In this document: piece by piece, positions 5,821-61,212 of the stretch
Numbering within the stretch: position 1 is the first letter of the stretch
How the letters are laid out: every line of letters begins with the position of its first letter
DNA from: Diplocarpon mali
Lineage: Eukaryota > Ascomycota > Leotiomycetes > Helotiales > Drepanopezizaceae
NCBI GenBank assembly: GCA_024741835.1
Contig: JAENRP010000149.1
Coordinates: forward strand, 40,347-104,346
Length of the DNA stretch: 64,000 nucleotides
Direction: 5' to 3'
Translations under genes and position numbers: made by a program
Notes under the pieces: generated by a model
What the model was told of the DNA's origin: nothing
Database searches by the model: none
Seen by the model: only the letters and a program-made list of their open reading frames with translations

Positions 5821-6120
5821 TTCCTGCAATATACCTCTTTAGGGAGACCTTTAAAGGTACTTGCTAGTAATACATATGATATTATAACTTTTATTATAAT
5901 CTACAATTTCGTATAAAAAATCAACCTGCAGATATAGGAAATAGAGTAGAGTTCGCTAGTGCGCTCTACTCTAGAGTAGGAAATCCACCCTTTAGTAAAT
6001 CAAAATCAACTCGCGGGCCTGGCCTAGGAGTAAAAAAAATCACCCTTTAATAGAAGTGTAAAAAAAAAATCACCTTATAATAGAGGTATAAAAAAAATCA
6101 CCCCTTAATTGAGGTACAGA
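5821..6120 (-). other. Copia-A 3' non-coding region with short A-rich repeats
   Basis: Between the LTR and RNase H. It has near-tandem units of a run of A followed by ATCACC and TAATAGA (about 6029-6115), and one 24-bp palindrome at 6009. Confidence 0.6.
6009..6032. repeat. 24-bp palindromic repeat, Copia-A 3' region
   Basis: Least mutated example of the type: left arm ACTCGCGGGCC and right arm GGCCTAGGAGT around one central base. The arms can pair with a few mismatches. Confidence 0.85.
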
Positions 6121-7914
6121 ACCTTTATATTTAACAATTTAATAAAGGCAGCGTAGTTGGAGCTATTTAAGCTCTTAGTAAGTCTATCGGCGGTATTATC
6201 TTTAGTATTAGTATACCAAAGGTTTAAATAGCCTTTCTAAAGCTCTTGCCGAATATAATAGAACTTGATATTAATATGCTTTATTTTCTAATAATATTTA
6301 AGGTTTTTAATAAGATAAAGGGCTCCTTAGTTATTATAGATTATCTCGACTTTAGTAGCATTATCGCTAGTATAGCCTATTTCCTTAAGTACCTAGCGTA
6401 TTTAAGAGGCCTCTTATGCGAATTTGCATATAGCGATATACTCTACTTCTATAGATAAGAGAGCGATAATAGTCTATCGCTTAAAGGAGGTAGTAATTAT
6501 ACTATTATTAAGGAAGAAGACGGCCCTAGAATAGGAGGCTCTAGTTCTTCTATTACCTGCTTAGTTAGAATCGCAGTAGCTATGCAATTTCTAAAGCTTT
6601 AGGTCAGTTCTTTTGCTTCTAAAGGTAGTATAATAGAATCGCGTTTCCTATAAGTACTATAAAACTCGTTTTAAAGCTATTATATATTATAGTAAAGGGT
6701 TAGTAAGGAATTTGCTAAGAATAGAGCAGTAGTATAGTATATCCTAACGCGTATAGTGCGCAAGGTACTATAGAGAACTATAGATCTCTTAGTATAGCTT
6801 TACTTCTTATAGAGTGGCTTAGCCTTCAAATTTGATTATATGAACTTTATAACTATTAGCAAAAGGCGTTAGTACGCTCTTACAATTAATTATATAAAAA
6901 CGTTTAAGAACCTTATTAATATAGGCGTTTTAATAAAGCGAGATCGTTCTATTTTATCGATCTTTAACTATATATACTCTTAAGAAGTAGTTAGCCAGTT
7001 CGCTACTTATAATCTTAAAGAGGTTGCGAAGATCTCTCTTAAACTTATTATATATATCACCTTTCTTAGCTACTATAAGGAAGTCGTTAATGTAGGTAAT
7101 AATAAGAATCCGAGAGGCGCGGTTGATATATATGTAATTGTTAGTATTAAAAGGTTAAAAATCGAGCTTTTGCAGCTCGGACCGTAGCTTTTCTTACTAT
7201 AGTCGTAGAGATTGCTTTAAGCTATATAAGGCCTTAAGAAGCTTAAGATAGTATTCTTAAGGTAAAAGAATAACCTTATCTTAAGTATATTTAAAAGGTA
7301 ACTTGATATAGATATTAGAGTTAGCTTTTAAATTAAGGAAAGCTATCTTAATATCGAACTAATTTAACTTAAAGTTATAAAGAGCTGCGAGTGCAATTGC
7401 AATCTTTTAAATGGCAGATTTGCAGACGCTAGCGAAGGTTTGGTTATAATCTTGACCTTATTATTATATATAGCCTTATATAACGAATCTGACCTTCTAT
7501 TAAGAGATTTCCCTATTTTAGTCTCTTTTTATTTTAAAAATAAGCCTTGATCTAAGTACTCTATTATCTTTAGAGAGTTTTAAGCGTTTTACTACCATTT
7601 ATATATTCTTATAAGCGAGGGAATTATACTTAGAGTTGATCGCAGATTACTATTTATTAGCATTAGCGTAAGAGAGGGCTTATTCGACTGTTTTCAGGTC
7701 ATTTGGGTAAGGAGAGTCGAGTAAGGCTATATAGAAGGCGCCTAAATAGGCTTTCTTATTATTAGAATTGTTAGCTTTGAATCTAAGAGCAGTAGAGCGA
7801 GTAGCTCTCTTCTTAAAAGGCTAAGGGTAAGCCTTGTTCTTTAAACTAGGAGGTCTTCCTCTCTTTCTTAGAGTTAGAAGGTCAGCTTTATTAGCTTCTC
7901 TTAAATCAGAATTG

Positions 7915-8040
7915 ACTCCTAGTCCTGGCTTAAGAGTGAAATCATTGTAAGAGTCAGTATTGACTTGCGGTCCCGGCCTAGGAGTAAAATCATTATTATC
8001 GTAAGAGTCAGAATTGACTTACGGTCCTGGCCTAAGAGTG
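7915..8040. repeat. Three 24-bp palindromes in Copia-A pol
   Basis: Starts at 7915, 7963 and 8017; spacings 48 and 54, both multiples of three. They lie between integrase and reverse transcriptase. Confidence 0.85.
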
Positions 8041-9429
8041 AAATCACCTCTTAATTACGGCTTTATAATTAGGCCATCTTTATCGAATCGAATGTAAGAT
8101 AATTGAATAATCTTTTCACCTATTTGCGATAGTATATAGATTTAATAGATACTTTTACTATCAAATCCGATAAGAGTACTTACCTTTGCTTTTAAAGCGA
8201 GTTTATTGCTTTAAGTTCGCCTTTCTTTCTTAATTAGTATATAGACGCGATAGCTTAGTACTCGAAGATGCTTAACTAAGGGAGTATAAGGCTTATTAGG
8301 CTCGATATTATCCTAAAAGACCTTATATAAAGTCTTGCCGCTAAGAATATTAGAGGTAGTAAGATTAGTAATATATATTATCAAAAGAAGGAGGTAAGGC
8401 TAGAGAAAGAAGGGGATATTTTAATTAATTATAGTTATTTATAACTTTTCTATTAGTATGCAAATTAATCATTTTAATCTGCTATCTTATTCTAATATAT
8501 ATAAAGTAGATTCTTCTAAAATCATACTAAGGTTTTCTACAAGTATTCGCATCTATATAAGAGAGTACTCTTTGCCTCTATCAGTTCTCTACCGCTTGAT
8601 TATACGATTATATTAAGTTTATAAAAGGCTGATTATCTTCTTATTTGCCTTAAAGGCATTAGATTTATTTATATAAGTCTATTCCTACTTAGCTATTATA
8701 GCTGCGCAAGTGAAGATAGAAGCGTATTTATAGCTATTAAGGCTAGTTGGCTTTAAATGAACCACATTAATATATAGCTTATCAAATGCCTTCGTAGGTC
8801 GAGGGCGAGCTAAACGTTTATTAATATATTAAAGAGGTCTGCCTTTCTTATAAGGAGCGCAAATTCGCATCTTCCTTAATTTCGTTTCCTTAATCTATAT
8901 ATTAATAATAGCAGATTAGGTCTTTCTAACCGTTTATAGGCTAGCGTGGCTTAATCGACGGTACTAGAGCTTAATATTAAAAGGTCTATTCTCAATAGCA
9001 GCTAAGAGAGCATATCCACTTATATAATTAAAGGAGTTAGTAAAAGGCTATTCCTTATTAATATATATATTATTATCGATAGTGCAAATTTCCTTCTTAT
9101 TAAATAGGAATAGCTTGCCATTTCGATAGAAGCCTTTGATTTTATTAAGTTTACTACCTAAGTATAGGCAGATAGGTAATTAAGGTATATAAAGAGTATT
9201 AATTAACTTAAGAATATATACCTTTCTATTAGATTTAAGTGCATTGACTTTGCAAGTACTAATGCTAAGAGGTTGAACAGATCTATTAACTATACTTAAG
9301 GAGGGTAGATTATCTTAAGCAGTATAGGAAGTAAACTTAAAGAGATTATTAGAAACGTGCTTACTAATACCTATATTATATAGCTAATAATTCCTCAATT
9401 TTAATAAGAAGTAGAAGGTAGAAGAATTG

Positions 9430-9507
9430 AGTCCTAGGCCCAGCCTGCGAGTGGAAATTGGCCCTAGGGAGGAGTCTGAATTAAGTCCTAGGCCCGGCTC
9501 GCGAATG
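9430..9507. repeat. Two 24-bp palindromes in Copia-A gag region
   Basis: Starts at 9430 and 9484, 54 bases apart, in the opposite orientation to the 7915 group. Each is followed by a second shared motif, ATTGGCCCTAGGG. Confidence 0.8.
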
Positions 9508-11733: not shown

Positions 11734-11802
11734 ACTTATAAGCTAGGCTTAAAAGTAGAATCGATCTACGCTAAAGTTACTTATAGGCCGGACTTAAGAG
11801 TA
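11734..11802. repeat. Two 24-bp palindromes in Gypsy-1 pol
   Basis: Starts at 11734 and 11779 (45 bases apart). Both are followed by AATCG. Confidence 0.8.
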
Positions 11803-13665: not shown

Positions 13666-13779
13666 ACTTATAGGCTAAGACTAAGAGTGGAATTCAAGTT
13701 TGCAGTTTTTACTCGCAAGCTAGGACTAGGAGTAGGATTCGAGTTCGCAGATTTTACTCGCAAGCCAGGACTAGGAGTA
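13666..13779. repeat. Three 24-bp palindromes in Gypsy-1
   Basis: Starts at 13666, 13711 and 13756, exactly 45 bases apart. They lie between gag and reverse transcriptase. Confidence 0.85.
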
Positions 13780-15542: not shown

Positions 15543-15566
15543 ACTTATAGGCTAGGCTTAAGAGTG
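15543..15566. repeat. 24-bp palindrome in Gypsy-1 gag
   Basis: In frame with the gag reading from Met 15712, giving DFTLKPSLQV-type residues. Confidence 0.8.
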
Positions 15567-15712
15567 AAATCTATACTAAGGGAGGGAGCTTCTTAAGTGG
15601 GCTTAAGAAGGGGAATGTCTCTAGGAGCGGGGTTGGCAATAAGGCCTAGAGAACTAGTGGCAGTAAGGCCTAGTAGAGGTACAATTAACCTTTCACTTCT
15701 CCTAAGTGGCAT

Positions 15713-24410: not shown

Positions 24411-24415
24411 ACTAC

Positions 24416-25111: not shown

Positions 25112-28100
25112 TACGCTTTTCACCTATAGGCCAGGCCCAGGAGTTAGAAAACGAAACTAGCAAAATAGACAAATAAGCTATAGAGTTATAAAAATAATCA
25201 AAAATAGTACTAACCCAGATGTCAATTTTCCTTAGTTCTCTTTAAGGGATAGGGAGAACTATTACTAGATAATACTCTCTTTACTAAACGACCACTTCTT
25301 CTTATAGTATTGCTATTAGTATCTAACGAGGTAGGTCTTGGTATAGCAGGAGCTTCTATACTCCTTGCGAATGCTAGTATAGTATAACGGCTTCTGCAGA
25401 TAGGAAGAGAGACTTATATTATAGCATTATTATTATCGTCGTCTTTATCATTATTATTATCCTCCAGAGAGTCACCTACTGCTAAGGGGGATGCGGTAGG
25501 GGATTCGACGGATATAAGTTCCTTATCCTTGCCCTTTTCTAGATCGAGTCGCAGGCCGGGCCCAGGAGTCATTTCTAGGGTCTTTGCTTAAGGTTTCTTA
25601 GTGCTGTATTTTTCGAGAAGAATGACTTTGTCGATCATATTATCGGCCTTGATACTATTATCTATGCCCTTAGTCTTAGCCTAAGACTTGTCTCTATATA
25701 GCTATAGCTCTAACTGTTGAATCATTTTCCAGGTGTTTATAAAATCTTCAAATAGTTCTTGCTTGTATTTCTTTAAATAAGTTATCAACTGCGTGATATC
25801 CTTTGCAAATAAGTCTTTTACTATTATTATAACTAATAGATCGTTCTATAGTCTTCTTCTTATAAGCGCCTTTGATAATAGACTACCTTTCGTTATTCTA
25901 AGTATTGTATAGAACTTTGCGGATGATTCGCCTATAATATTCTATCTCGCAGTCCAGGGTCGCTTTATATTAATGACTTCGATTAAAAAGTCCTCTAGGT
26001 CCACTCTGTTTTCAAGGGCTTTATTCCCGATAACTTTAGTATAGTTATTGCTGATTATAAGGAAGCTGCCTTTACTAGGTTCTTGTTTTAAATCTAGGTT
26101 AATGAATATTCCTTATCTTATAAACACTAAGAATAGGATAGTCTTATTAGAAACGTATTCTTTTAAGAATGTCCTTTGTTTAGTATTCAGTTCTTTTTAT
26201 TAAATAGCGCTTTATATTAAGTTTATTAAAATCTATTAAGCATTCTTAAGTCTGGTTAGTATAAGGATTAATAATTCGTAAGACTTCTCCTATATAGCAA
26301 ATTGGCCAGTCGACTGTTTGGCTGCTAGAATAATATAGTAGTTAATAGTTCTATTATTAAGAAGGCTAACCCGCGAGCCAGGCCTAGGAGTTAATCTTAT
26401 AAATCTTATATTAGTATCAATTCTAATTGCAATAATTTTTAAATAGTGGTCAACCCTAATAAACTATACAGGCTTAGGGTATATTACTAGCTTATATAAA
26501 GAATTATAATAAGTAAGCAAAGCGCTTAGATACAATCTATAGTGCATTTTCAGAGTCTATTATATCAAATTGTAAGTCATATTATAGAGGAACGCGGATA
26601 GAGGAGCTGGCTTCTTATCGGAGACTCAGAAGTAGTATTAGTACATTTCTAGTTCTTCTTATACTAATGTCAAAAATGAAGTCTTTATACGAGAACTATA
26701 ACTATATATATATATAGCACTTAGAAAGGCATAGCTAAATAGCTTAGGCATATTTAAAAAACCTTTGCTTTAGAATGATATTAATTTGTCACTAGTCAAT
26801 ATAGCATTATACTAGGCAGGAATCCAGGCGATATTATAGAATAATTTCAAAGCTTTAAGTGCTACCTTAAACTTAGCGAATCCTAATAATATATCTTTCT
26901 TGACTTAGCTTGCTATTCTATTGCTAGTGGCCACAATTGCATAATTCCTTAGGTATAGTAAAAACAACTTTAGGTCGGGTGCAGTATAAAATTTATATAT
27001 ATTAGAGGAAACTTGCTTATTAGTTAAAGATACTATTATCAGCTTATAATATTATATATATTATTATTTATATAGAGTATAAAATTTTTCGAAACTGAAG
27101 TCTTTAAATATCCTTATCACAAATTTGCTCAGTTGTATCTTTATCTCTAGTATTATTGTAATCTTGAATCTATTGCTATATTAAAGTATTATCTTAATAT
27201 TAAGGGGAACTTTATAGCACTCTATAGATATAATTATTATACTATTTTCTGGCTTTTCTTTAAGGATATAGTAGTCGCCTTTCAATTTCTTATGCTTAAT
27301 AAAGAAATGCATAATATTATCTATAGAAAATTCGTCTTATTATAGCTTTATAATTTATTTAATAGCTCTTGCTATCGCTTCCTATACTAGTAAAACTTCT
27401 CCTTAACCTTCCTTTTTCAAATGCTTTATTATTAACTTATAGAATTTCAGAACAAATTTTTATAGGTCTTTGGAAAAGGTTTACATAATATCGGCTATAT
27501 CCTTCTTAATATTGTTAAAAATTTCTATTATATTAGTAATAGGGTTGTTCTCTTCGTCTGTTAGATTATCTTCAAAGTCTATATCATTACGTATTCTAAC
27601 CCGTAGGCCGGGCTTATAAGTCAACTTCTTTGCTACTAGTATTCTAAGTGTTTAAGGCATCTCTAGGGATAGTAAATCAAACTCGTCTAAGTCTAATGAT
27701 TAGTAATTGCGATAGTTAGCTATTTGAGTTCTAAGTATCATAGGCACCTCTGGCTCGGGGACATCCTCCTTATATAGTACTTCTACCTATAGGCTAGGCC
27801 TATAAGTCAAATTTTGCTTATTAATTGAATCTTCCAAGGGTGGTAGCATTTTCTAAGCGGTAGGTATAATAAACTCTTATCTTTCCGTCTTATTATCAAA
27901 GTAGTTTATAGTATACTTAGCTAGATAGATCATCTTTTCCTTTATAATAAGTAAACTACATTATGACTATTGCAAACCGAGGGTATCTAGAACTGTTTGG
28001 TCTAGTAACGCAATATTATTATACTAAGAGGGGCTGTCCTTTATAGTCTGAATAATAGAATAGATAATAGTACTTGAGAAACCTATAAATTTTCTACCTC

Positions 28101-33003: not shown

Positions 33004-33154
33004 ACTTATAGGGTAGGACCGGGAGTCAAATTTCTTAAAAGATATTCCTTTATAAGACTATATGACTTGACTCGCAGTCTAGGCCTAGGAGTCGATCTAA
33101 AAACTTTCCTTTATAAGACTACGTGACCTAACTTGCAAGGTAGGCCTAGGAGTT
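33004..33154. repeat. Three 24-bp palindromes at the 3' end of Copia-C
   Basis: Copies start at 33004, 33070 and 33131, each preceded or followed by similar TCCTTTATAAGACTA spacers. Confidence 0.85.
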
Positions 33155-36100: not shown

Positions 36101-38300
36101 CCCTTAATTTCTCTAGCCTTAAATGCGCGAATCTTCTATATATTAGCTAATACCTTAATAGGCTTTCGGCTTTTAATAGCTTTAGTAGCCTATCGTCAGT
36201 CGATACTTCGTCATTAGTAGCTGGAAAGGACTAATGATAGCAGTTCGAGGTTTTGCCATTTTCTAATTGCAAGCCTGGCTTAAGAGTTGTTTTTAATAAA
36301 ATCGCAAGATCCACTTGCAGTCCTGGCTTAAGAGTCGATTTCCTAGAAATAGTAAGATCCACTCGCGGTCCTGGCTTAGGAGTCGTCTCTAACGAATTCG
36401 CGAATTTCACTTGCAGTCCTGGCTTAGGAGTCATTTCTGCGAATTTCACTTATAATCCTAGCCTAAGAGTCGTCGTTAGCGAATTTGCAGAATCTACTTG
36501 CAGTCCCAGCCTAAGAGTCATTTCTGCCAAATTCACTTATAATCCTAGCTTAGAAGTCCATCCATTCTCCTTATCCTCGCTTAATTGTATTAGGGTAAAG
36601 AGTGCACTTTCCTTAAAGGAATTCACTCGTAGGTCTGGCCTAGGAGTTAATTTCTATAATATTACCTTTAAGATAACGTAAAGTCTATCTTTGATTTTAA
36701 CCTTAAAGATCACTTTATAATTATTATTTATAAACTATATAAATTGATTATTAAAAACTCTTATATAATTTAACTCTATATAGATCTTGCGGCTAGATAA
36801 GAGATTAATACTTAAGCTAGGTATAAGGAGAACATTTTGCAAAAGGAAAGAAATGCTAGCAATATTCATCTCTACTATACCTATTGAGTTTATATATAAC
36901 CTTTTACTATCAACTTTAATAAAGCGCCTTTTTATTTTAGTAAGCGGGCCTTTAAATAGGTAGGGTTTGTCAGTTATATATACTATGCAACTAGTATTAC
37001 TATACTAATCGGATTTAAGGATCTTACAGAGATCGGCTTTTAAAACGTAAGCATCTTTATTATAATTATTATTTAAATTATCAAAAGTGGATTTAGATTT
37101 AGATGACCTACTATTATTATTAGAGGTATCTGCTAAAGTTCTGGCTAAATAGCCTTTTCCTTTGCCTTTCCTTAGTAATTGCGGCCTTTGGTAGGATAAG
37201 GGCAGTTTGCTTCTTAACTTCTGCTTTAATTGCTTTTTAATATTAAAGCTAGCGACTATATCGATTAATTGCCTTTTAACTTCACAATTAGTAATATTAT
37301 AAGTACTATTATAGAAGTAGCATCCCTAATGAGCTTAAGGGCTTGTCCTGCGCTCCTTCCTCTTCTTAGGCTTATTGTTGCCTTATAATGCGGCATTTGC
37401 CGATTCAGAGTGTCCTTTGAGGTCTTGCTTAACAGTTCGAAGGAGGTCGATCTTCTCGTAGATCTCAAGGTTAGATTAGACGAGAAGAGATTATTTCGCA
37501 ATAGCGAACTTAAGAAGGAGGCTATTAAGTAGGAAACTAAAAAGCTAAGTTTCCTTAAAAGTCATAGCTATCCCAGGATCTATAGCTCTTACTCTTCTCC
37601 TTGCTTTACGCAGTATAGACTAGGTAGAGTCTATATTTATATCTATATTCTTACTATCTTTATCTTTTCTATATTGAAATAAAGTGATCTATTATAGCAG
37701 ATGCTAGGTATTAAAGGCAGTTGTCTAAGAGTATTTTGCCTTTAAAGTATCCTATCTTATCTTCGCATTATTATAAACTTAAACAAAATCTTAGTCTTCA
37801 TTACTTAAACCTCTATTAATCTTAAGCTTGCATTTAGCTAAGGCCAGCCTATACTCCTTCTCCTTTTCTATATTTAAAATCTGCCTTTAGGATTCTCGGT
37901 TATTATCTACTAAAGCTCTTAGGCTAAGCTTGTTTAATATATCTGGCAAATCCTTAGCAGTTGTATTAGCTATTGAAGTAGAAGTAGACGAATCAGTAGA
38001 GGGAGTATAAGGGGCTATTCTTGCATATTTAATAAGTGTCTTTTAAATCGCTATTTTAATGCCTTTGCTCTTAAAGTAAAGCTCTAAATCGTCGAACCAT
38101 CGTTGCTAGTTCTTCCGAGAGAGTTGGAGGTCTCTAGGCTTAGTATTTCGATCGGAATCGGATGCTATTGCCGTTTCGAATAGAATTGCATTTAAAATCA
38201 AATAAATTAAATAGTTAAGGGCACTCCTCCTATCGAAAAGTTAAAATGATTAAATAGCAGGTATTATAGAAGTATTAAATAGGGAGGAAGTCCTCTTATC
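33150..38300 (-). pseudogene. Copia-C gag-protease-integrase-reverse transcriptase-RNase H, RIP-inactivated
   Basis: Read leftward. Gag (about 37000-38300) has a degenerate zinc-knuckle area near 37300. A linker with eight in-frame 24-bp palindromes (36265-36648) follows, then integrase (about 34800-36230) and reverse transcriptase with its catalytic loop reading YIDN at 34158-34169. The palm/connection motif IYTIVYIRPDIAFITRQLS is near 33790-33850, and an RNase H-like stretch (33168-33362, SKHIDITYYFI then ADGFIKLL) ends it. This is complete Copia domain order with numerous stops, so it is inactive. Confidence 0.8.
36265..36648. repeat. Array of eight 24-bp palindromic repeats in Copia-C
   Basis: Copies start at 36265, 36313, 36361, 36409, 36448, 36496, 36535 and 36625. 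Steps are 48, 48, 48, 39, 48, 39 and 90 bases, all multiples of three, so the protein frame is kept. On the coding strand each unit reads as a Thr-Pro-Lys/Arg-Pro-Gly-x-Gln/Arg-Val-type octapeptide. The array corresponds to the one at 57933-58313 in Copia-E. Confidence 0.9.
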
Positions 38301-38773: not shown

Positions 38774-41700
38774 AAGGAAATTGGACTTTTTTATTTATTA
38801 TTTAAAGAAAGTAATAGGAATATTATAATTAAAGGCTAATATTAAGAATGTAAAATAAGTTAGAGCAGGCAAGAATTTAAAGTAATCCTAAAAGATCTAT
38901 ATCTTAAATAATAAAGGAGGCGACCTTGCTAAAAATATAAAAATAAGGATTAGAGGAAGGTAAGACAATTGATAGGCTAGGAAATCGTTTAGTATTCCTG
39001 CTTGCGTTCTTTAGATATTTTAAAAATGATAACTTAGGGTTGCGATTAGTTAGGTATTTTAATATTCTTTACCTATAGGACTGGCTTATAGGTCAAATTG
39101 GAAAAATCTTAGTCTTTATCTAAGGGTTTAAAATTGCTTATATCGCCATTGGTTTTTATAGAAGATTCGGAGGTTATATCAATTTCTGATTTGTCTTTTA
39201 AAGGGAATAAGGTCTAGTCGTATTAATAAAAGCGCTTCAGTCGGTTGGCTGTAAAGGTTCCTTTAATATCGATTCTATTAAGTTCTTAAAGAGAATAGTA
39301 TCCCTTTTCTTCCTGCTTAGACTTAACCTTAAATAGACTAAGCTATTAATAGTTAAGTTTAATATCTGCAGATATATTAATACTTTTTGTAATATCGTAG
39401 ACTAGGATAAGATTATCTTTTTAAATAGGGTGCGTTTTAAGTACTTTAGAAGCAGCCTACGCTTCCTTAGCTTTTTCCTAATATCGTTTCTTTCGCAAAA
39501 TGATTTCCTTTATATCTATATCTTAAAGCTTAAGTTATTAGCATCTTATTATAAGTAAATCAGAACGGTTCCGAATTTGACTATAGTCGAACAATCTCTA
39601 AATAGGCTATTAGGATTTAAAAGGGAGCTATGCCTCTTTGCTATAGATAAGGAAGAATAGTATAACTCTAGTCGGTTTATAGATTATCATTTAATAAGCA
39701 AAGAGTATTTTATAAAAGCGTTTTATCTAATCCTTGAATCCTTTATAAGTAACTTTAGATAGACTATTAAGAATGTTATAATATCCTTATTCTACTACTC
39801 TATTAGCTTTTGAGTTATACGCTAAGATTTGAACCTGTTTAATACTATATTTTCGCAAGAAAGCTTTAACTACTCCTTTGTTTTTAAGGCCTTTATTAAT
39901 AGTTAATCTATTAAAAAGTCTATAGCGATAGACTATATCTTCTTAAAGGAACTTTGCAATAGATTTAAAGTTAGCAGATCTTAAAGGTTATCCTTTAGGC
40001 CATCTTAATAGGTCTTCTTTTATTAAAATAAAATATATTATCCTATTTTTAGTAGTTAGTACTTATATAACGTTAAGGCTGACTTTGTAGAAAAGGCCTA
40101 ATAGCTAGGTTAGGAATAAGGGATTTTCCTTATAACTAGGTTTTCGTTTCTAATAGGGGACATAACTCTTTACAAAAGCTTTATAGTTTTTAAAAGAGCC
40201 TTTTTAAAAGAATTTTCTTAAGAGTTAGTGGTAAGTGGACTTAGCTCCTTAGTGGCCAGTTTCCTTATAAATATCCTAGATAGCCTTAGCCCTTAGTTTT
40301 TCATTATCTAAGCAGAGTCGTATAAGGAATAAGTTATCGCTCCTTTTAAATAATCGTCTTCCTTATATTAAATAAATCAGAGCTTTAGCTTTGAATTTCT
40401 AAAAATCCTTAAGAGCAACCGTCTTTAGTCGTTTAAGCGTAATTAAAAACTTCGCAATTTCTTCAAAGTCACTTAAGTAGTTAAGTGATAAAATTCTCTT
40501 ATTTAACTCGTAGGCTAGGCTCGCGAGTCGAGTCCCTTCAAGGCAATATATCAATAGATAACCAACTTCGTTTTCTACCTACTTATTAATATCTATTTCA
40601 TCTTCTTTAATTAAATCAAAGGGGTAGGGCCGAGTTCTTCTTAAAAGGCCGTTTATAATAGTGTTTTTCATTCTTAGAATATATTTGACTTCAAAGTCTA
40701 TTAGTCTTATTTAAGCAATCCATTTTATTAGTAAGGCTTTAGGTAGGTCACTTATAGCTCTATTCAATTGTTTTACTAGCACTTTAGCATTAGTTTTAAG
40801 GATAAAGTAAATACTATAAAGGTCGCTTCTTATCTTTTTTATTGCTTTTAAGGCTCTTCTACATTCTTATTTAATAGTATTATACTTTGTCTCCGCTGGA
40901 TTCTAAAGACTACTTTCAAAGTAAGCTAGATGTCTTTTCTATTAGCTATTAGCTTATTAAAGGACAGCACCCTATCCGATTAAGCTTGCGTTAACTATTA
41001 GTATTATTAGCCTAGCGTCGGCTTTATAGTCTATTTTGATTAGATATAGCGCTTTAAGTAACGCTTGCTTCAGTTGTTTTATAACCTCTATTTAGGGTTC
41101 CTCCTATTGAAACTCAGCCCCTTTTTAAAATAAGGCGTAAATAGGCGCTGCCTTTTTAGCGAAATCCTTAATTTAAATATAATAGTATACTATAACGCTA
41201 ATAAACGCGCAAGCTTCCGCTATATTATCATACCTCTTTTATTTATCGATTTTAAGTACTTTAGCCCTTTAAGGACTTCGGCCATTGGAATTAGTAATAA
41301 AACTAACAATTTCTATTAATGGAAGATAGTATTATAACTTCGGACCAACTGTTGCTCCTATCCTTTCGAATTATATAAGCACTTAATCCAGGTTCTAAAT
41401 ATATTCTATTATAAATTGTTATATATTAAGAAGAACTTCTTTATAGTTATAGAATGATCTTGATCCTTTTACTCTTATATTATCTATATAAAGGAGCGTA
41501 ATATTAGGTATATAATCCACTAGTATCTTATAGATTACTTAGATAAATTGAGCGATCGAATTTATAGTCCCTTAAGGTAATCTTATTATCTAAAGTAGCT
41601 TAAGAGGGGTTTGAATTGCTATTATATCTTTCGATTTAATATTAAGAATAAATTAGTTATATCTAAAGAAGAAGTTAATAAGAGAGCTGCAGGTTAATCC

Positions 41701-44700
41701 TGCGAATTCATTTAAGAACTCATCTATATTCAAAGGAACGTTAGCGTCCCTAATAGTTACTTGGTTCATCTCTACTACTACTATTATTAATCTGTAAGTT
41801 CCCTTCTCTTTTTTAATAATTAGGAACCATTTGTTCTTATAAAGGCTATTATAAAACTTAAGAACTCCTTACTTCAGCCTGTCCTTTAATATTTCGATTA
41901 CCTTTTCTTAAAGAGCTTTAGGGACCTTGAATGTTTTCTCTTGCTAGGCTTTATAAGGTATTGTCTTAATCTTAATATAAGGCGTGACCTCTTCTCGAAT
42001 CTGGCTAAGTTCTATCTAGTCAAAAGCTAAGGCATCCTCTCGATTTATTAAGGTTTTATAGAGTAATTCGCATTCTTATTCTATCAAGTCATCTCTAATT
42101 TTTAGTATATTAAAATGTTCTTTTATTAGCCGATATCTAATAGGTTTATTAGAAAATCTGCCTATAATAAACTTATCGAATTTGCCACTCGGCTTCAGAG
42201 GTCGAAGCTTCTTATCTTATTCAAACCAATCGTCCAGTCCTCTAGGCTTTAAGCTATTAAAGATTCCCTAATCTATCGGTTGTACTTTATTAGCCTTGCT
42301 TTTATATATAATTCGAATATTAGCTAGTACTATACTTCTCTACTTCTTTCCTTTTTTATCAAATCTTATAAAACGGTCCGAATTTTCCTTTTTAAAAACA
42401 AATAAAAGATTTTCTAAGTCGTTAATTTAAAGTATATAAATGGAAATATCATTAGTAATTTTATTATTTTTCACTCGCGGGTCCGGCCTATAAGTAGTTT
42501 TTAGGTTTTTTAAAATAATTGGTGAATTATCGAAATTTATAAAACAAACTCTCTTTTTCACCTTATTTTTCTTTTTTCTTAATTATTAAGCTAATAAAAC
42601 GCCAATTGCACCATTTTTCAAAATTCTAGATTTGACTCTTAGTCTAAGACCGCAAGTCAAATTGCTATTATTTAAAATCGGCAAACTTACCTTTCTTTTG
42701 CTATAACTCCTCGCTAAATGCTTTCCTTTATTAGCATTAAGCTTAGCCCTTATGCTAGCTAATCGTTTCCCAAAACCTTATTTTAGAATTCGGCTATATC
42801 TCTTATAATAACCATTTGTCCTTCTAAGGATCGATCTATATTCTAAAGGCTAGCTTTTATAAGCCTATCTTTAAGATAGTTAAATATTAGCTAAGATTCT
42901 AAAATAAAGGGCATTCTTAAAAGAATATCATTTAAGGAATTCTCTATTATTAAAAAGTCAATATAATTAATAATTCCTTTAACTTTAACCTTTACATTTT
43001 TCACTTATCTATTAAAATTGTATTTCGATCTAAAGATAGTCGAATAAATAAGGAGTCGATCGCTAACGATTATCAATTAAGCTATTTCTGCCACTTTTCT
43101 AATTATTATATTAACTTCTAAACTATAATCAATTAGAGCCTTTGCTTTAACTGATTCTTCTATAAAACAAATAATAATAGGGCTTTTTATTATAACTACT
43201 AAACAATTTCAATTAATATTCTAAGATATCAAAGCTATTACTATAATATCATAGTACCTTTAGGTTCCTTTATCTTTTGCAATCTAAAGATATTTAATTA
43301 AGGCTAAGTGCTTCTTAAAGTTCTTTCGCATTACAATTTCCATTTCCTTATTATTATTCAAATCTTTAAAGGCAACTGGGATATGCTTTCCTAGCACTTT
43401 ATTAAAGCGTTTAGTCAAACCAAATAGGTCTTTAAATATAAGGTTAATTTGCTAGGCTATAACATTCTCTACAGCTTTCTCTATTGCAATTGAACTAGCG
43501 TATTTATTAATAAATTTCTCCTATTTTAACATCTATCTCTTTCGCTTAAGGTCAAAGGTCTGCGCAATAACTTCAACTTCTTAATCTTTAAGCTTAAAGC
43601 CATCTTCGTCTATTATATCTCTAATCAATTCGTCTACTATATCGGCTTCATCCTTATCTACTGCAGTTCCAGACTATTAAGTGTCTTTTAGCATTTGGAC
43701 TCTATATTAAGATTCCTAAGTTGCATACGCTAATTTCTAGACTTTAGCTAGTTTTATTAGTATTAGTAAAGTAGAAGATTTAAAAGGACGCTAAGAATTC
43801 TAAGGGTTCTTAAATATAGAAGCAGCATTAATATTAGCTAAAACATTATTATTAACCTATCTTAAGATAGAGATGCCTTTAACTTCTATAGCTATTTGAT
43901 TAAAAGCTAAGTCCTTAAGAACTCCCTTAGGTAGATTGCTAATTAGACTTATATATATATAAGTTGGAATTTTAGCATTTATATCTATAATATACTATCG
44001 TTCGACTAAATTCTTATCCTATTTCGTACTATATATTATCGTTTGAATAGTCTATAACTATAAGCGATTCTAGTGCTTTTTAATAAGGATAGCTTTTGGC
44101 CTAGGATCCCTAATGCAAAGCATCCCATACTTATTAATATATATAACCCTAGTATTAATAAAACAAAGGAAAAGAGGGCAATTATTGCAATACTTATATA
44201 AAGCGCAGTTAGGTTCTTCATTATTGCAAAAGTTGCAGGTTAGTCGTCTTCCATTGCCATTCCCTTAGTACCCTATAGTATTAATATTAGTAAAGTGCTA
44301 ATTAGGATTAATTTCTCCTTCTTTAATTAACTATTAAGTTCTTATATTAGTAGGTTATTCCAAATGATAAGAAGCAGGAGTCTGGTAATAGGAACTACTA
44401 TATTAGCTTATAGTAGCCGAGTTTTGCCTATTACCAAATTAGAAAATATGCTATTTTTCTTATAAGAGATCATTAATCCTAGTTTCCAAGCTCTAGATTT
44501 AGAGTTCTGCAAATTGGGTCTTAAGTTCCTTAATTCTAAGGTTAGATTTCACTCCTAGGTCGGGCTTGCGAGTAAAAGGTATAACCACTAGGTTCTTCTT
44601 TACCTCCTCTATGACTTCCAAAGCCTTTGAGTATTCTTGGACCAGGCTCTTAAGGTCTTTAGTATAAAAGGGAGTAGGGGCTTTTTCCTACTTTATAGTA

Positions 44701-44876: not shown

Positions 44877-44881
44877 CTAGC

Positions 44882-45090: not shown

Positions 45091-45105
45091 TGTGAGTACT
45101 TTAAT

Positions 45106-50989: not shown

Positions 50990-51960
50990 CGCGACCCTCT
51001 CTTAGATTCTCCTAGCCAGGGCCAGGAGCCGAGACGCCACAGCCAAGAGCTCCGCACGGATCTCCTCCTGAGAGAGGCCTACCGGCACTCCCTCGGCCAG
51101 AGGCCCGCCGGCGAACACACCAGCGACGGCGGGGGCGAAGGCGGGGGGTGCGGCAGGGGCAACGGGGGCGAGGGCGGCGGCGGCGAAGGCGGGAGCGGCG
51201 ACGGCAGGGGCCGGGGAGACGAAGGGAGACACAAAAGGGTCGGCGGCGGCGGCGGCGGCAGGGACAGGAGTGGCGGCGGCAGCGAGCGGAAGAAATGGAG
51301 CAGCGGAGGACAGGCCGGCAGCGAACGCGAATAGGATACCAGAAGCAGGGGAAGCAGCAGTACCACCACTCGCAAGAGTGGCAGGCCCTCCTGGCACCAG
51401 GGTCCGATCGCTCCTATCTTTTAAAATCAGCTTAGAACTTAACGAGACTTGATAAACGTACTATAGAAGCTCTAGAGCGCACCCTTCACTGTATTAAGCA
51501 ATGGTGCCACTTCCTCCTTAAAGGCGCCGCAGGCGCAGGCCGATACGACAGCCTCCTAGGAGGCGAGGAGAGGTCCGCTAGCCTGCTGGCAGCTGTTGCT
51601 CAATACTGTATAACAAACGTAACGCGCACTAAAGGTGCTATTGAAGCACCGACAATCGAGATTACCAGTGCTCTCGCATACGATACAACGCACGCACGCA
51701 TCGTCGCGCTCTATTGTAGGCTTAGGCATACAGTACGCAGTAGGGGCAGGGCTCTTAGGTGGCAGCAGCGGCAGCAGGGGCGGCAGCAGCGGCAGGGGCG
51801 ACGGCAGCGGCAGCTCGTTGCCCAGCAGGCGCTAGGACGATCGCGCCAGGGTTGCAGCTCCCGAAGGAGCGCCAGCGACCTAGCGCAAAGTCAGTATAAC
51901 GCAGGGTATAGGGACTCCAAGGGTCTTACTTTACGGGGGCGGCCGGGGCCACGACGAGCG
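50990..51960 (-). pseudogene. GC-rich antisense Ala/Pro-rich and Cys-rich coding region inside Copia-B
   Basis: A GC-rich island of about 1 kb on the strand opposite to Copia-B pol. At its left end an uninterrupted frame (51002-51397, 131 codons) is Ala/Pro/Val-rich and ends GLSQEEIRAELLAVASRLLAL. To its right a frame at about 51556-51744 is Cys-rich (ACVRCIVC, then LDCRCF), and an Ala/Pro-rich tract (VAPAAAAAPAAAAA) is encoded near 51760-51830. A few TAG stops separate them. The many CAG triplets still present show that RIP has largely spared this segment. I have the impression that similar Ala-rich plus CxxC-type predicted proteins occur in other fungal genomes, but cannot name a family. 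It could be an antisense accessory ORF of the element or a captured gene. Confidence 0.45.
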
Positions 51961-52270
51961 GGAGTTCCTTCTATATTTAAAAATTATTAGTATAAAGACG
52001 ATATTTTTAAATAATAAAGGAGAGTTGTTTTTAAAAGAAGGGAAGGAGAACCTCTGCGATAGAAATACTCTATAGGAAGCCCAATAGAGCACTAGCGTAG
52101 AATCGCAAAGATTCCTAAGCGCACTTATTGCCTATAGCGACCCTTCTCGTTCTGGAAGGAACGACCTTTAGAGGGGCAGCACGTAAAGTAGAGCCTCTTT
52201 TCCTCACAACTGCCATTCTTTCTTTTATTTTAACTATATAGCTAAGCGATTCTAGGAGCATCGCCCAACT
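51961..52270 (+). other. Copia-B 3' untranslated region
   Basis: AT-rich again after the GC island, leading to the polypurine tract. No gene recognised. Confidence 0.5.
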
Positions 52271-52278
52271 AAGGGGTG
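52271..52278 (+). other. Polypurine tract of Copia-B
   Basis: AAGGGGTG immediately before the 3' LTR. Supports the plus orientation. Confidence 0.7.
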
Positions 52279-52476
52279 TGTTATGCAGAATGGGCGGAAT
52301 CTCCACTTATTCTAGAGACCCTCTACGTAACTCCTGCTGAGTCATAGACTCTCCCTTTTCTTTCCGAAGTCTCCTTACTATATATATACTAGATAATAAT
52401 ACAATCAATCATCTTCTCCCATATCAGCGAGCCTCCTAAGCGACCCAATGAAGGCCCTCCAGCCGACCGCACCATA
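52279..52476 (+). repeat. Copia-B 3' LTR
   Basis: 198 bp, starts TGTTATGCAGAA and ends ACCATA, partner of 44882-45079. Confidence 0.95.
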
Positions 52477-52481
52477 CTAGC

Positions 52482-53400
52482 TAATTAAGGTATTTAATAT
52501 ATAAGTAAAAGTCTAATAGTAATTCTTAAGTTCCTTAGAAGTATAAGTAACTAGAATAAATTCCTTTAAGAAAGCCAGGGTATTGCGAATCTACTATCTG
52601 TCAAATTTGCAAAATTCAGATTTAAAGGCCTTAATAAGGAGTTCCTATAAACTATGAGTTTTCTATTTAAAAAGGGACTTGATAATATCCTTACTTATAT
52701 AATCATAGTAGCAAGGAAGTTAAGAAATCATATCCTCTTATATAATATTAAAATCGTAATAAGTTTCCTTATATTGCTTAAGGAAATTAGTAATATTAGC
52801 ACCTATAAAGTAAGGAGCGCTAGGGGAACTAGGAAGGGGAAAGTGATTAGTAATAGCCCTAAATGCAGCTATTATTATTTTATATTAACCGTTTAAGTTG
52901 ATAGAATCTATAGAAGGCAAAGGGAAAGCTTTAATATTATAAGATTGATTGCTAAAAGGAGTACTTCGAAATTCAAAAGGGCTTAAAGAACGTTTAGAAT
53001 CCGAGTCAATCTTAGAGTGACTAGGACGAGTTTGAAAAGATTTAAATAAAGGATTAGTGAAAAGTTTAAAATTGTTATTATTTTTAGTATTTTCTAATAT
53101 TAATATTAAAAAAGTAAGTAGTAGTCCTAAGTTATTTAAGGATGTCTTTTTATCCTCCTACTTATAGGCTAGGCTTAAGAGTAGAATTCCAGATTCTATT
53201 AAAAGTTTAATCCGAGTTTGCTAAGAGATTCTAAGTAAGTGCTAAATAGCTAATAGGAGCGTTGCAACTAATTGTAATAAGATAAGGTTTACTTAATTAA
53301 GGACTAATTTCTAAAATAAGATTTATATTTAAGATTCTTCTTAGCCTTTAGGCCAATTCCTATTAGTCCTTAGAATAAAGGGATCTCTAGAGACGATTCT
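52482..53400 (-). pseudogene. Gypsy-2 gag, N-terminal part, RIP-inactivated
   Basis: The minus-strand gag portion upstream of the Copia-B insertion. It is homologous to the plus-strand copy at about 60300-60950, which carries the same segments (AYFTSANITDFFK-like, NHISKDIIKSLF, SEFYEF). The plus-strand open frame at 52654-52896 is its shadow. Function as a nucleocapsid precursor is inferred from position before the protease and RT. Confidence 0.65.
53160..53183. repeat. 24-bp palindrome in Gypsy-2 gag leader
   Basis: Equivalent, inverted, to the copy at 60180 in the second Gypsy-2 element. Confidence 0.8.
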
Positions 53401-56299: not shown

Positions 56300-59256
56300 T
56301 CTATTCGAAATGGCAATAGCTTCCGATTCTAATTGAAACACTAGACCTAGAGACCTCTAACTCTCTTAAAAGAACTAGCAATAATAGTTCGATAATTTAA
56401 AGCTTTACTTTAAGAGCAAAGGCATTGAAATAGCGATTTAAAAGATACTTATTAAATACGCAAGAATAGCCCCTTATACTCCTTCTACTAATTTATCTAC
56501 TTTTACTTTAATAGCTAATATAATTGCTAAGGATTTGCTAGATATATTAAATAAGCTTAGCCTAAGAGCTTTAGTAGATAATAACTAAGAATTTTAAAGG
56601 CAGATTTTAAATATAGAAAAGGAGAAGGAGTATAGGCTAGCCTTAGCTAAATGCAAGCTTAAGATCAATAGAGGTTTAAGCGATAAAGATTAAGATTTTA
56701 TTTAAGTTTATAATAATATAAAGATAAGATAAGATACTTTAAAGGTAAAATACTCTTAAATAACTGCCTTTAATACCTAGTATCTATTATAGTAGATCAC
56801 TTTATTTTAATATAGAAAAGATAAAGATAGTAAGGATATAGATATAAATATAGACTTTACTTAGTCTATACTACGTAAAGTAAAAAGGAGAATAAGAGCT
56901 ATAGATCCTAGGATAGCTATAACTTTTAAAGAAACTCAGCTTTTTAGTTTCCTATTTAATAGCCTCCCTTTTAAGTTTGCTATTGCGAAATAATCTCTTC
57001 TTATTTAACCTAACCTTAAGATCTATAAGAAGATCGACCTCCTTCGAACTATCGAGTAAGACCTTAAAGGACGCTCTAAATCGGCAAATGCCGTATTATA
57101 AGGCAACGATAAGCTTAAGAAGAGGAAGGAGCGCAGGATAAGCCCTTAAGCTTATTAGGGATACTACTTCTATAATAGTACTTATAATATTACTAATTAT
57201 AAAGTTAAAAGGCAATTGATCGATATAATCGCTAGCTTTAATATTAAGAAGCAATCGAAGTAGAAGTTAAGAAGTAAATTGCCCTTATCTTACTAAAGGC
57301 CGCAACTATTAAGGAAAGGCAAAGGCAAAGGAAAAGGCTATTTAGCCAAAACTTTAGCAGATACCTTTAATAATAATAGTAGGTTATTTAAACCTAAATC
57401 CACTTCTAATAATTTAAATGATAATTATAATAAAGATGCTTATATTTTAAAAGCCGATCTTTATAAGATCCTTGAATCCGATTAGTATAATAATACTAAT
57501 TATATAGCATATATGATTAATAAACCTTACCTATTTAAAGGCCCACTTATTAAAATAAAAAGGCGCTCTATTAAGGTTAATAGTAGAAGGTTATATATAG
57601 ATTTAATAGGTATAGTAGAAATGAATATTACTAGCGTTTCTTTCCTTTTATAAAATATTCTCCTTATACCTAGCTTAAGTATTAATCTTTTATCTAATTA
57701 TAAGATTTATATAAAATTGAATTATATAAGAGTTTTTAATAATCAATTTATATAATTTATAAATAATAGCTATAAAGTGATCTTTAAAGTTAAAATCAAA
57801 GATAGACTTTATATTATCTTAAAGGTAATATTATAGAAATTAACTCTTAGGCCAGACCTATAAGTGGATTCCTTTAAAGAAAGTGCACTCTTTGCCTTAA
57901 TATAATTAAGCGAGGATAAGGAGAATAGATAGACTCTTAAGCTAGGATTATAAGTAAAATTCATAAAAATGACTCTTAAGCTAAGATTATAAGTAGATTA
58001 TAAGGTATCTTTAAAAGTGACTCTTAAGCTAGGATTATAAGTGAATTTAATAGAAATGACTCTTAAGCTAAGACTATAAGTAGATTTTATAGATTTATTA
58101 ATAATAACTCTTAAGCTAGGATTGCAAGTGAAATTCGCAGAAATAACTCTTAGGCTAAGATTGCAAGTGAAATTCGCGAATTCGTTAGAGATAACTCTTA
58201 AGCTAAGACCGCAAGTAGATCTTGCCATTTCTAGGAAATCGACTCCTAAGCTAAAACTGTAAGTAGATCTTGCGATTTTATTAAAAACGACTCTTAAGCT
58301 AGGCTTATAATTAGAAAATGGTAAAACCTTAAACTGCTATTACTAGTCCTTTTTAGCTACTAATAATAAAGTATCGACTAACGATAGGCTACTAAAGCTA
58401 TTAAAAGCCGAAAGCCTATTAAGGTATTAGCTAATATATAAAAGATTTATATATCTAAGGCTAGAGAAATTAAAGGGCTTATATAAGGTCTTGATCTTAA
58501 AATAGAAGATCTAAGTATTAAAGGATTGCTTAATATACCGAATTTGCAAGCTGATAAAACTTTAAAATTAGACGCGAACTAAGCTTAGTCTATAGAAAGA
58601 TTCGATACTAGCGCTAATATCTATTAATACTGCTAGACTATTTATAACTTTAATTAAAAGAAATAATTGGTTTTTTCAAATAGTAAATAACTCCACTTAA
58701 TAGATATAGACCATTTATACTAAGACCAAATCTAAGCTTATAAAAAAGCTAGAAACTTGAAAAGTAATAAAAGAACATTAGACTTAATTAAAGCTAATAG
58801 CTATTAGGTCTAATAACGCATTAAAGATTAGGGTAAAGCTTAATAAATAGGCAAAATAAGGAGTTTGCTATAAACTAACTATAATATACAAAGGTTCTTA
58901 TTAAAATAGTATTACTAAGCGAAGCATTTAATAAGTAGAGACTGACTATTGCGCTTTATTGCAAGATGCTGACCTATTACTGGAATTCTAGGACCTTGCA
59001 GTTAAGGCAGACGCATACCTGCGAAATAGAATAGGTAGTAGACTAATAGTTAATAGTACCTAAATATCGCTATATAAGGCATATTTCAAATAGAAACTAA
59101 GCCTGGACTATATCTGCATCTTTAAAAGCGTCTGCTACTCCTATATTAGCCCAAAGTCCTAGCCTATAGGTATAAAAAGCAAGAAGCTAATAGACTAAGG
59201 TAGAGAATGTATATTTGTTAAGTATATTAAATAAATAATAAAGCAATAGATAGTAT
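56300..59256 (+). pseudogene. Copia-E gag-protease-integrase fragment, RIP-inactivated
   Basis: Gag (about 56300-57300) is followed by a protease-region stretch with MINKPYLFKGPLIK near 57510-57560 and SLSINLLSNYKI near 57670-57720. Then comes the linker with repeated LKLGL/LKLRL plus V units, and integrase N-terminal sequence from about 58380, broken at 59256. No reverse transcriptase is present in this fragment. Many stops. Confidence 0.7.
57843..58313. repeat. Array of 24-bp palindromes in Copia-E
   Basis: One copy at 57843, then nine at 57933, 57972, 58020, 58059, 58107, 58146, 58194, 58242 and 58290. Steps are 39 or 48 bases, all multiples of three. Coding-strand reading is Thr-Leu/Pro-Lys/Arg-Leu-x-Leu-Gln/stop-Val. 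It mirrors the Copia-C array. Confidence 0.9.
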
Positions 59257-59503
59257 TATAGAGACTTGAGATAGATAGGTCTTGTGATATATATCACATA
59301 ATCGGCGCAGGATAATAGGAGGATAAAAGGGCCATCTTCTATATATAGAGATAGCGCGTATCGCTATAAGTACTAAATATACCTTATACTTAGGACTTAT
59401 TCCTAACATCTTGTCTAAGAGAGCCTACTTATAGTACTTCCTCCTCTTGTTTTTAGGTCTTCCCTTAGGCCTATTCTTGTATTATCTCCCCTTCTATTTT
59501 ATA
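59257..59503 (+). repeat. 5' LTR of the second Gypsy-2 copy
   Basis: About 247 bp, inverted match of 53858-54102 with small indels. Confidence 0.85.
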
Positions 59504-60179
59504 TTAGTGACCTACATAAGGACCGATTTCTTAAGATTTCTATCCTTATATAACCTTATCAATCTCTTAGTTCGCAGATAAAAGACTAGCCTTTTTAAAA
59601 AATACATCTTTAAAATACTTATAGCATTTTAATCAACTTTAAAAACCTTATCCTTAATTGCCTAGTTACTTAAAACTATCGATTTTCATTTAGTAATTAT
59701 TAATAACCTTAGATTTTCCCTTTTCGGCTCTGCTTTAAAAACCCCTATTTTCTTCCTTAACTTTGAGATTTTCAGAATTTTCGGCTTTCTAATATGAAAA
59801 GTTTAGCAAACCTTATAATAGCAATCTTAAATAATAGTAGTTTCGAGTACTTAAGTAATACTAAGCGCAAACTCTAATTGGAAGTGCCTCCTTAGAATCT
59901 TTAGAAATCCGAATCTGATAATTCAACCGCCTTAGCTTAATAGAACTTTAAAAATTGCCTTAGAATTATCTTTAAAGACCCCTTTATTCTAAGGACTAAT
60001 GGGAATTAGCTTAAAGGCTAAGAAGAATCTTAAATATAAACCTTATTTTAGAAATTAGTCTTAGATTAAGTAAACCTTATCTTATTATAATTAGTTGCAA
60101 CGCTCTTATTAGCTATTTAGTACTTACTTAAAATCTCTTAGCAAACTTGGATTAAACTTTTAATAGAATTTGGAATTCT

Positions 60180-61212
60180 ACTTCTAGGCTTAGCCTATAA
60201 GTAAAAGGATAAAAAGATATCTTTAAATAACTTAAGACTACTATTTACTTTTTTAATATTAATATTAGAAAATACTAAAAATAATAATAATTTTAAACTT
60301 TTTATTAACCCTTTATTTAAATCTTTTCAAATTCGTCTTAATTACTTTAAGATTGACTTGGATTTTAAACGTTCTTTAAGCCCTTTTGAATTTTAAAGTA
60401 CTCCTCTTAGCAATCAATCTTATAATATTAAAGCTTTCCCTTTATCCCTTATAGATTCTATCAACTTAGACGGTTAATATAAAACAATAATAGCCGCAGT
60501 TAAGGCTATTACTAATCACTTTCCCCTTCTTAGTTCTCCTAGCGCTCCTTACTTTACAAGCGCTAATATCACTGATTTCTTTAAGTAATATAAGGAAACT
60601 TATTATAATTTTAATATTATATAAAAGGATATGATTTCTTAACTTCCTTACTACTATAATCATATAAGTAAGGATATTATTAAGTCCCTTTTTAAATGGA
60701 AAACTCATAGTTTATAAAAACTCCTTATTAAGGCCCTTAAATCTGAATTCTACGAATTTGATAAATAGTAGATTTATAATACCCTGGCTTTTTTAAAGGA
60801 ATTTATTTTAATCACTTATATTCCTAAGGAACTTAAGAACTATTATCGGACTTTTACTTATATATCGAATACCTTAATCAGCTAGAAAATACTTAGCGAA
60901 GTTGAAAGAGGCCGCCTTTTCTTACTCGGATTACCTACTAGCCTTTAAAATAAGATTATTAAATATTTTAAAATCGATAAGTAAGACCTTATAACCTTTG
61001 CCTTATTTAAGGAATTTTCGGCCTTTACTTTAAAATCAGATCTTAATAAGAGAACTATTGATATTATAGAGTAGGAAAAAGCCTTTACTCCCTTTTATAC
61101 TAAAGACCTTAAGAGCCTGGTCCAAGAATACTCGAAAGCTTTGGAAGTTATAGAAGAGGTAAAGAAGAACCTAATAGTTATACCTTTTACTCGCAGGCCT
61201 AACTTAAGAGTA
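60180..61212. repeat. Two 24-bp palindromes in the second Gypsy-2 copy
   Basis: Copies start at 60180 and 61189. They sit at the same places as 53160 and 44551 in the inverted Gypsy-2, so they were present before the two elements diverged. Confidence 0.8.

Follow-up and report, generated by a model that had tools for sequence, protein, structure and literature searches.

A near-palindromic 23-bp repeat dispersed inside Copia and Gypsy retrotransposons of Diplocarpon mali, mostly in one codon phase

How does one short palindromic word come to be lodged in retrotransposons of two superfamilies, and for the most part in their reading frames? The question is raised by a stretch of 64,000 nucleotides of the fungus Diplocarpon mali (GenBank assembly GCA_024741835.1, contig JAENRP010000149.1), referred to here as the window, which spans C149:40347-104346 of the 49.37-Mb, 676-contig genome; C-numbers (C1, C149) denote contigs, and L-numbers (L002, L010, L028 and so on) denote loci of the genome. 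An initial annotation, made from the sequence alone, described a 24-bp palindrome that had spread in frame through unrelated Copia and Gypsy elements. The analysis presented here shows that the unit is a dispersed short palindromic repeat living inside long terminal repeat (LTR) retrotransposons, and that it is more than an inherited linker but not a proven mobile unit.

The core of the repeat is 23 bp long and near-palindromic (ACT...AGT), with one free central base, and not 24 bp with two variable centre bases as first described. Its form before repeat-induced point mutation (RIP) is ACTCSCGGGCCNGGCCCGSGAGT, i.e. ACTC-S-CGGGCC-N-GGCCCG-S-GAGT. This un-RIPed word was deduced from the mutual differences among the eight copies of one spot in a 3' untranslated region (UTR) (L034-L041), which are transitions, and from RIP in aligned element copies, where C has changed to T in 45% of CpA, 33% of CpG, 12% of CpT and 7% of CpC. 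RIP on CpG is nearly as strong as on CpA in this material (the AT-rich part of the window with L002, L010, L020, L023 and L028). The variable triplets of the arms, annotated as "xYR", are mostly RIP states of CpG, with CTA, GTA, TTA and ATA at positions 5-7 being RIP products; the choice of C or G at position 5 and the changes at positions 9 and 15 are not RIP. The AT-rich flanks prolong the symmetry weakly (RAWTYN...NRAWTY): in 34 tabulated copies, which include some array neighbours or homologues, 98% of flanks have C or T as the second base outside the core, while the first base varies freely. Comparison of 22 aligned pairs gave no sign of special mutation of the motif, either in transversions (at 6 of 506 sites in the motif and 79 of 10,090 in the flanks) or in transitions (17% in the motif, 11% in the flanks); pairs with L002 and L004-L009 were left out, as these had been picked for an exact motif.

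In the window, a profile search returned 53 positions above score 11 and 52 above 13, against averages of 1.1 and 0.4 in 20 first-order Markov simulations. This profile was trained on the window's own copies and so is not independent of them. A second, composition-free profile gave 50 matches above 12 and 49 above 15, the latter being the number counted initially, and a copy was found at each of the places named at that time (6009, 15543, 30317, 31703, 57933-58312 and 61189). Weak profile sites at 10409, 11900, 25666, 35406, 55009 and 59149 were left unused. The intervals 15543-25122 and 44551-53160 have nothing above score 9, and the same is true of two other Copia elements, at 18.6-21.1 and 45.9-50.6 kb, which the initial annotation had called Copia-B and Copia-D and in which it, too, had seen no copy.

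The proposed scan of the whole genome, which does not depend on the training of the profile, was made with a RIP-tolerant pattern that matched 8,391 sites (reversed control, 3). Since this pattern finds 37 sites in the window, where the profile finds 49 to 50, the true genome number is likely above 8,391. Sites within three mismatches of one form number 721 in forward and 684 in reverse orientation (reversed-pattern control, 0 and 0); the un-RIPed word occurs at 22 genome sites without mismatch (44 rows, both strands) and at 382 within two mismatches (control, 0). Blocks below 44% GC, which make up 61,949 bases of twenty random 10-kb stretches, contained 15 sites, whereas the 131,463 bases above that value contained none; on contig C1 the sites, among the matches listed, are grouped in islands separated by as much as 288 kb. 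A degenerate form of the un-RIPed word had no match in prokaryote genome contigs and one chance match, in a 70% GC contig, among viral contigs. No description of such a repeat was recognised among the papers listed in literature searches, and the available portions of Diplocarpon and Marssonina genome papers do not contain the word "palindrome".

The carriers in the window are four LTR families, two Copia (Copia-B and Copia-E) and two Gypsy (Gypsy-C and Gypsy-FD), at about 20 positions (Table 1), so that presence in unrelated families of both kinds is borne out; Copia-B as used from here on is a different element from the one so named in the initial annotation. The copies are located in interdomain linkers, in an extra open reading frame (ORF) and in 3' UTRs.

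Codon phase was determined for 20 coding copies by comparing stops by eye in the three coding-strand frames; one comparison (L010:2980) was tied and was settled by the window counterpart at 9484. Untranslated copies (6009, 25122, 33004-33153) and further units of counted arrays were left out, as were 39071, 53160/60180, 35406 and L017:771 (frame ambiguous). Nineteen of the 20 copies share one phase, in which the unit starts with the codon ACT (phase 0). The copy at 40506 is in the following phase (phase 1), as is its L023 counterpart, and shares the pol frame of its neighbours. In-frame placement, as claimed at first, thus describes the 19 and does not extend to 40506 or to the copies outside ORFs. 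Phases 0, 1 and 2 leave the unit open in 19, 6 and 8 of these 20 copies, respectively; openness alone predicts a share of 0.58 for phase 0, and the P for 19 of 20 is about 2.5e-4 on the assumption of independent copies, an assumption that copies in one ORF or array may not satisfy. The seven spots from 25547 to 31703 stand in one common frame, and all 24 coding spacings in arrays and close pairs are multiples of three (nine of these come from a second copy of the Copia-E array, leaving 15 of 15); of the two Copia-E 3' UTR spacings, one is divisible by three. Both orientations are present: on the coding strand, the first arm is of the C type in 19 of 33 tabulated units, several of them from one array, and of the G type in 14. 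The peptide is TPRPGPRV or TRGPGLGV according to orientation, the two directions that had been described as open, and phase 0 gives T-x-x-P-G-x-x-V either way. Among the copies read, untranslated ones are as well formed as translated ones.

The age of the repeat can be judged in the extra ORF of Gypsy-FD. This long ORF (25225-32661, - strand) lies downstream of pol and consists of two diverged tandem halves; two pieces of it matched no Pfam family. The halves are an internal duplication, 30% identical over 941 positions, with an alignment score of 885 compared with at most 69 in 30 shuffles. At 30317/26369 the copies of the two halves align with each other, at 31703/27785 they are two residues off, and these pairs keep 21 and 20 of 23 purine/pyrimidine states while the flanks keep 57-72%. 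The unit is therefore old in this ORF and better kept than its surroundings, which suits constraint and continual re-copying alike. The copy at 27599 faces a gap of 7 residues in the other half; since a second gap, of 15 residues, lies nearby, the empty site there is approximate.

Arm subtypes also cluster by element. A G-type left arm is found at 10 of 13 Gypsy-FD spots and at 2 of 13 elsewhere (P 0.005), and such element-specific subtypes point to local copying. In Copia-B, a linker copy (L010) and a 3' UTR copy (L002) have 16 further bases of the left flank in common; flank plus motif score 32, a value reached by none of 2,000 random 40-mers (best, 30).

Empty sites were sought at three spots, with collinearity judged by row lengths in the best 40 of 657, 240 and 257 candidates. 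At the Copia-E array, 38 of 39 other rows are collinear and one is 9 bases longer; at 29432 all 39 are collinear; at 40506, 38 of 39 are collinear and one is a base shorter. The unit is thus fixed at set places within families. The Copia-B 3' UTR was queried with the motif removed, giving 40 rows, nine of which were fetched. The motif is present in eight of these; the ninth, L033, lacks a 31-bp stretch consisting of the motif plus TGATTTTG and is joined at TTTTACTTACT. Another 14 rows contain the motif, as seen in loci L006 and L007 or in the genome pattern matches, and three of the other 17 show a small net loss like that of L034-L039, in which the motif is present and one 28-bp unit fewer is found. 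These 28-bp tandem units (AAGGGGTGATTTTTTTT..., window 6031-6116) vary in number among L002 and L033-L041, and a 17-bp presence/absence difference lies just downstream of them.

The three-unit array of Gypsy-C varies in size. The flank-to-flank stretch measures 66 to 156 bases in all 40 pairs of pieces, L028 included, and none is empty, because the unit-free length would be about 20. Whole units number three in L028, one in L042 and L043 and two in L044-L047; in L028, L042 and L043 the last unit is 15 bp short, whereas that of L044-L047 and of the window is complete. This 15-bp in-frame difference (L042-L047, L028) makes the last unit a half unit. Two of three protein searches had no match, and the third found two proteins of Diplocarpon coronariae (Leotiomycetes, Helotiales), the better one 84% identical over 55% of the Gypsy-piece query; one of the two corresponds to one whole and one half unit of the array. 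Assemblies of D. coronariae are described in excerpts of PMC11527701 as 50-54 Mb in size, with about 20% Copia and 6% Ty3 elements.

To account for these observations, we tentatively place first a process in which the repeat is copied within and between retrotransposons during reverse transcription and is filtered by reading frame. Reverse transcriptase may stall at the hairpin-forming palindrome and switch template. A switch to another site of the same RNA would give rise to arrays and element-specific subtypes, and a switch to a co-packaged RNA of another family would spread the unit between families. Copies that close the frame or hit a domain would be lost, while linkers, the extra ORF and UTRs would keep theirs, mostly in the phase in which either orientation of the unit remains open; each family would then have multiplied with its own set, and RIP would have decayed the copies. 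This proposal draws on the copy number, the confinement to AT-rich DNA, the occurrence in four families of two superfamilies at mostly unrelated positions, the untranslated copies of the same sequence, the phase bias and the spacings divisible by three, as well as on the subtypes by element, the change in unit number, the 31-bp presence/absence and the common 16-nt flank in Copia-B. A bolder form of the proposal, which we hold with more doubt, is that the 23-35 bp palindrome is a selfish micro-element that uses reverse-transcriptase template switching to multiply inside the LTR elements of one fungal lineage and to pass between unrelated ones, is kept mostly in the one phase open in both directions, and would be among the shortest in-frame mobile DNAs in a eukaryote. 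If this is true, it would suggest that retrotransposons can be parasitised by something no longer than a primer, and the copies would be a natural record of template switching between unrelated elements.

Several results weigh against copying of this kind. The claim that the repeat had spread as a mobile unit met with no observed movement: none of the 117 other rows at the three spots has an empty site, and no recent jump was seen. The 31-bp absence in L033 can equally be a deletion between the flanking ACT / GATTTT repeats, and the one presence/absence pair found allows no target duplication to be defined. The test of similarity within elements is weak, with P 0.018 when D, F and G are kept separate and P 0.084 after D is merged with F and G is dropped. 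The phase bias, moreover, exceeds what openness alone predicts and leaves room for peptide selection. It had been suggested that a motif always at homologous positions in related elements, without empty sites, would be an ancestral protein linker. Within families this is nearly what is observed; between families the unit stands at unrelated positions, is read in both directions and occurs in untranslated DNA, which argues against such an origin.

The main alternative, ranked second and in our view unlikely, is a cis-acting palindromic box under selection. Such a box could be bound as DNA by a host factor or, as an RNA hairpin, serve packaging or dimerisation; different retrotransposons would have acquired it and multiplied it because of the help it gives them. 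The CGG-N7-CCG core resembles the sites of fungal Zn2Cys6 regulators. The preservation of the motif in the diverged ORF halves and the well-formed 3' UTR copies agree with such a box, as does the folding of two of six units, which is far better than that of their shuffles (z -4.0 and -3.8). The other four units, however, lie within 1.5 standard deviations of shuffles, and no hairpin covariation between the arms was found over 28 spots (238 of 308 cells pair, compared with an arm-shuffled mean of 241; P 0.80), positions 5 and 19 pairing in only 5 of the 28 and positions 9 and 15 giving P 0.14. The copies are also spread across ORFs and are not promoter-near, and two neighbouring Copia elements manage without the repeat. 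A precedent exists in the Sirevirus retrotransposons of plants, for which excerpts of PMC2829016 describe as many as 32 palindromic boxes in one element, the majority having a CGG-CCG core. A shared cis-box would point to some host factor or RNA function that Copia and Gypsy have in common, and the thousands of RIP-marked copies in this genome offer material for testing either this or template switching.

Selection on the encoded peptide, with T-x-x-P-G-x-x-V kept as a disordered spacer or a protease site between polyprotein domains, is improbable and was ranked third. It would explain why 19 of 20 coding copies share a phase giving this peptide in either orientation and why many copies lie between domain-like pieces, and the freest base of the unit, position 12, is the silent third base of Pro in phase 0. 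Other third bases are conserved all the same, position 3 being T in 32 of 33 units and position 21 being A in 28 of 33; the two orientations encode different peptides, 40506 is in another phase, and the untranslated copies in 3' UTRs contradict this explanation as the whole story. It is also unlikely that Copia and Gypsy owe a match at the nucleotide level to descent. Slightly less probable still is a by-product of tandem-repeat turnover, in which one element's array supplied pieces that were passed on by recombination and the palindrome has no special property. Arrays are indeed common and vary in unit number, and 8 of 1,362 flank comparisons between different elements, which are not independent of one another, reach at least 16 of 18 purine/pyrimidine matches where 1.1 are expected; seven of these involve a Copia-E unit, and two are one Copia-E/Gypsy-C match. 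Against this, many spots are single, and the likeness between elements otherwise stops about six bases outside the core (about 35 bp in total); what travels centres on the palindrome.

Table 1. Retrotransposons and copies of the repeat in the window. Element borders are approximate, and most domain names were assigned by eye from stop-free pieces.
Feature	Position	Strand	Remarks
Copia-B	about 5.9-10.6 kb	-	carries repeat
Gypsy-C	about 10.6-16 kb		carries repeat
Gypsy-FD, large	about 25.1-45.2 kb; fragments 52.5-53.8 and 59.6-62.1 kb		carries repeat
Copia-E	32668-38768	-	nested in Gypsy-FD; more copies at 55.7-59.3 and 62.1-64 kb
Spot A, Copia-B 3' UTR	6009..6031	-	adjoins 28-bp tandem repeats; all three frames closed around copy
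Copia-B linker, array of 3	7915..8039	-	before RKRGRPP; phase 0; TPRPGPQV and relatives; read by eye as integrase/reverse transcriptase linker
Copia-B ORF, two copies	9430..9506	-	opposite orientation, TRRPGLGV-like in L010; same phase
Gypsy-C two-unit array	11734..11801	-	45-bp step; one unit in L028
Gypsy-C three-unit array	13666..13778	-	45-bp step; fewer units in other copies
Gypsy-C single copy	15543..15565	-	phase 0; DFTPGPGLRVDS in L028
Gypsy-FD 3' UTR	25122..25144	-	downstream of extra ORF's last stop
Gypsy-FD extra ORF, second half	25547..25569	-	phase 0
Gypsy-FD extra ORF, second half	26369..26391	-	phase 0; aligns with 30317 of first half
Gypsy-FD extra ORF, second half	27599..27621	-	7-residue gap opposite in first half; approximate empty site
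Gypsy-FD extra ORF, second half	27785..27807	-	two residues off 31703 position in half-half alignment
Gypsy-FD extra ORF, first half	29432..29454	-	collinear in 39/39 other scored copies
Gypsy-FD extra ORF, first half	30317..30339	-	phase 0
Gypsy-FD extra ORF, first half	31703..31725	-	opposite orientation, TRGLRLGV; phase 0
Copia-E 3' UTR (by eye), three copies	33004..33153	-	after stop ending RNase H-like piece; spacings 66, 61; no domain named by Pfam in this region
Copia-E array, 8 copies	36265..36647	-	after Pol_BBD-like piece; steps 39, 48, 90; phase 0
Gypsy-FD divergent copy	39071..39093	-	downstream of integrase-like piece
Gypsy-FD	40506..40528	-	between RNase H-like and integrase-like pieces; phase 1, unlike others
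Gypsy-FD	42473..42495	-	between protease-like and reverse transcriptase-like pieces; phase 0
Gypsy-FD	42635..42657	-	between protease-like and reverse transcriptase-like pieces; phase 0
Gypsy-FD gag-like piece	44551..44573	-	TRKPDLGV; phase 0
Gypsy-FD fragment, 5' spot	53160..53182	+	also at 60180-60202
Second Copia-E copy, same array	57843..58312	+	10 copies
Gypsy-FD fragment, gag spot	61189..61211	+	TRRPNLRV

Ten stop-free pieces were compared with Pfam. One family, RVT_2, was above cut-off, with a match at 49485-49949 (E 7e-13) in the repeat-free Copia element at 45.9-50.6 kb; Pol_BBD and a second RVT_2 fell below cut-off, and two further matches were chance-like. Direct repeats at 32668-32865 and 38571-38768 are taken as parts of the Copia-E LTRs. 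The spots 40506 and 31703 are 8,803 bases apart in the window, and what is presumed to be the same pair, matched from the series of spacings, is 2,697 and 2,698 bases apart in two uninterrupted runs on contig C1; the flanking spots are thus 6,106 and 6,105 bases closer there, showing that Copia-E interrupts Gypsy-FD with an insertion of about 6,106. The GC-richer end of the window holds a 107-bp tandem repeat in three copies (2729-3045), and a 62% GC island with short tandem repeats (51001-52000) lies amid the AT-rich retrotransposons. Beyond the gag spot, L020 could not be usefully aligned with the window.

The repeat can be compared with several known systems. Miniature inverted-repeat transposable elements (MITEs) are likewise short inverted-repeat DNA in many copies; the repeat described here is far shorter, no target duplication was found, and it was not seen outside AT-rich DNA. 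An ancestral polyprotein linker would be translated only and would have one conserved peptide, in contrast with the 3' UTR copies and the two orientations observed. The repetitive extragenic palindromic sequences (REP/REPIN) that occur with RAYT (TnpA-REP) are 20-40 bp high-copy palindromes as well, as described in excerpts of PMC3733652; they are extragenic and bacterial, whereas most phased window copies here are intragenic. Sirevirus boxes, according to the same excerpts of PMC2829016, are numerous in each LTR retrotransposon, mostly have a CGG-CCG core and persist while the rest diverges; they belong to plant Ty1/copia elements, lie in LTRs and mostly upstream of env, and vary in consensus by element. 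CGG-CCG palindromes in many copies per element are found here too (22 genome sites of the un-RIPed word, 13 Gypsy-FD spots tabulated), but as one word common to Copia and Gypsy, and most window copies lie in ORFs or 3' UTRs and not in LTRs, upstream of env or near promoters. For the Rickettsia palindromic elements (RPE), to which the initial annotation had likened the repeat, genes without the insert are known. Here, possible insert-free counterparts are limited to one 31-bp UTR absence and one gap in a paralogous ORF half, with none among the 117 other rows at three spots. The excerpts of PMC10969869 describe RPE as palindromic repeats in frame in unrelated ORFs, a feature reproduced here by 19 of 20 phased copies in four families; RPE are, in contrast, about 150 bp long and reside in bacterial metabolic genes, while the present repeat has a 23-bp core, about 35 bp with flanks, and resides in fungal retrotransposons and their UTRs, with its gain unproved. 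The comparison holds for appearance, not for membership. In-frame palindromic inserts are best known from Rickettsia; in this fungus they occur in thousands of copies and in both LTR superfamilies.

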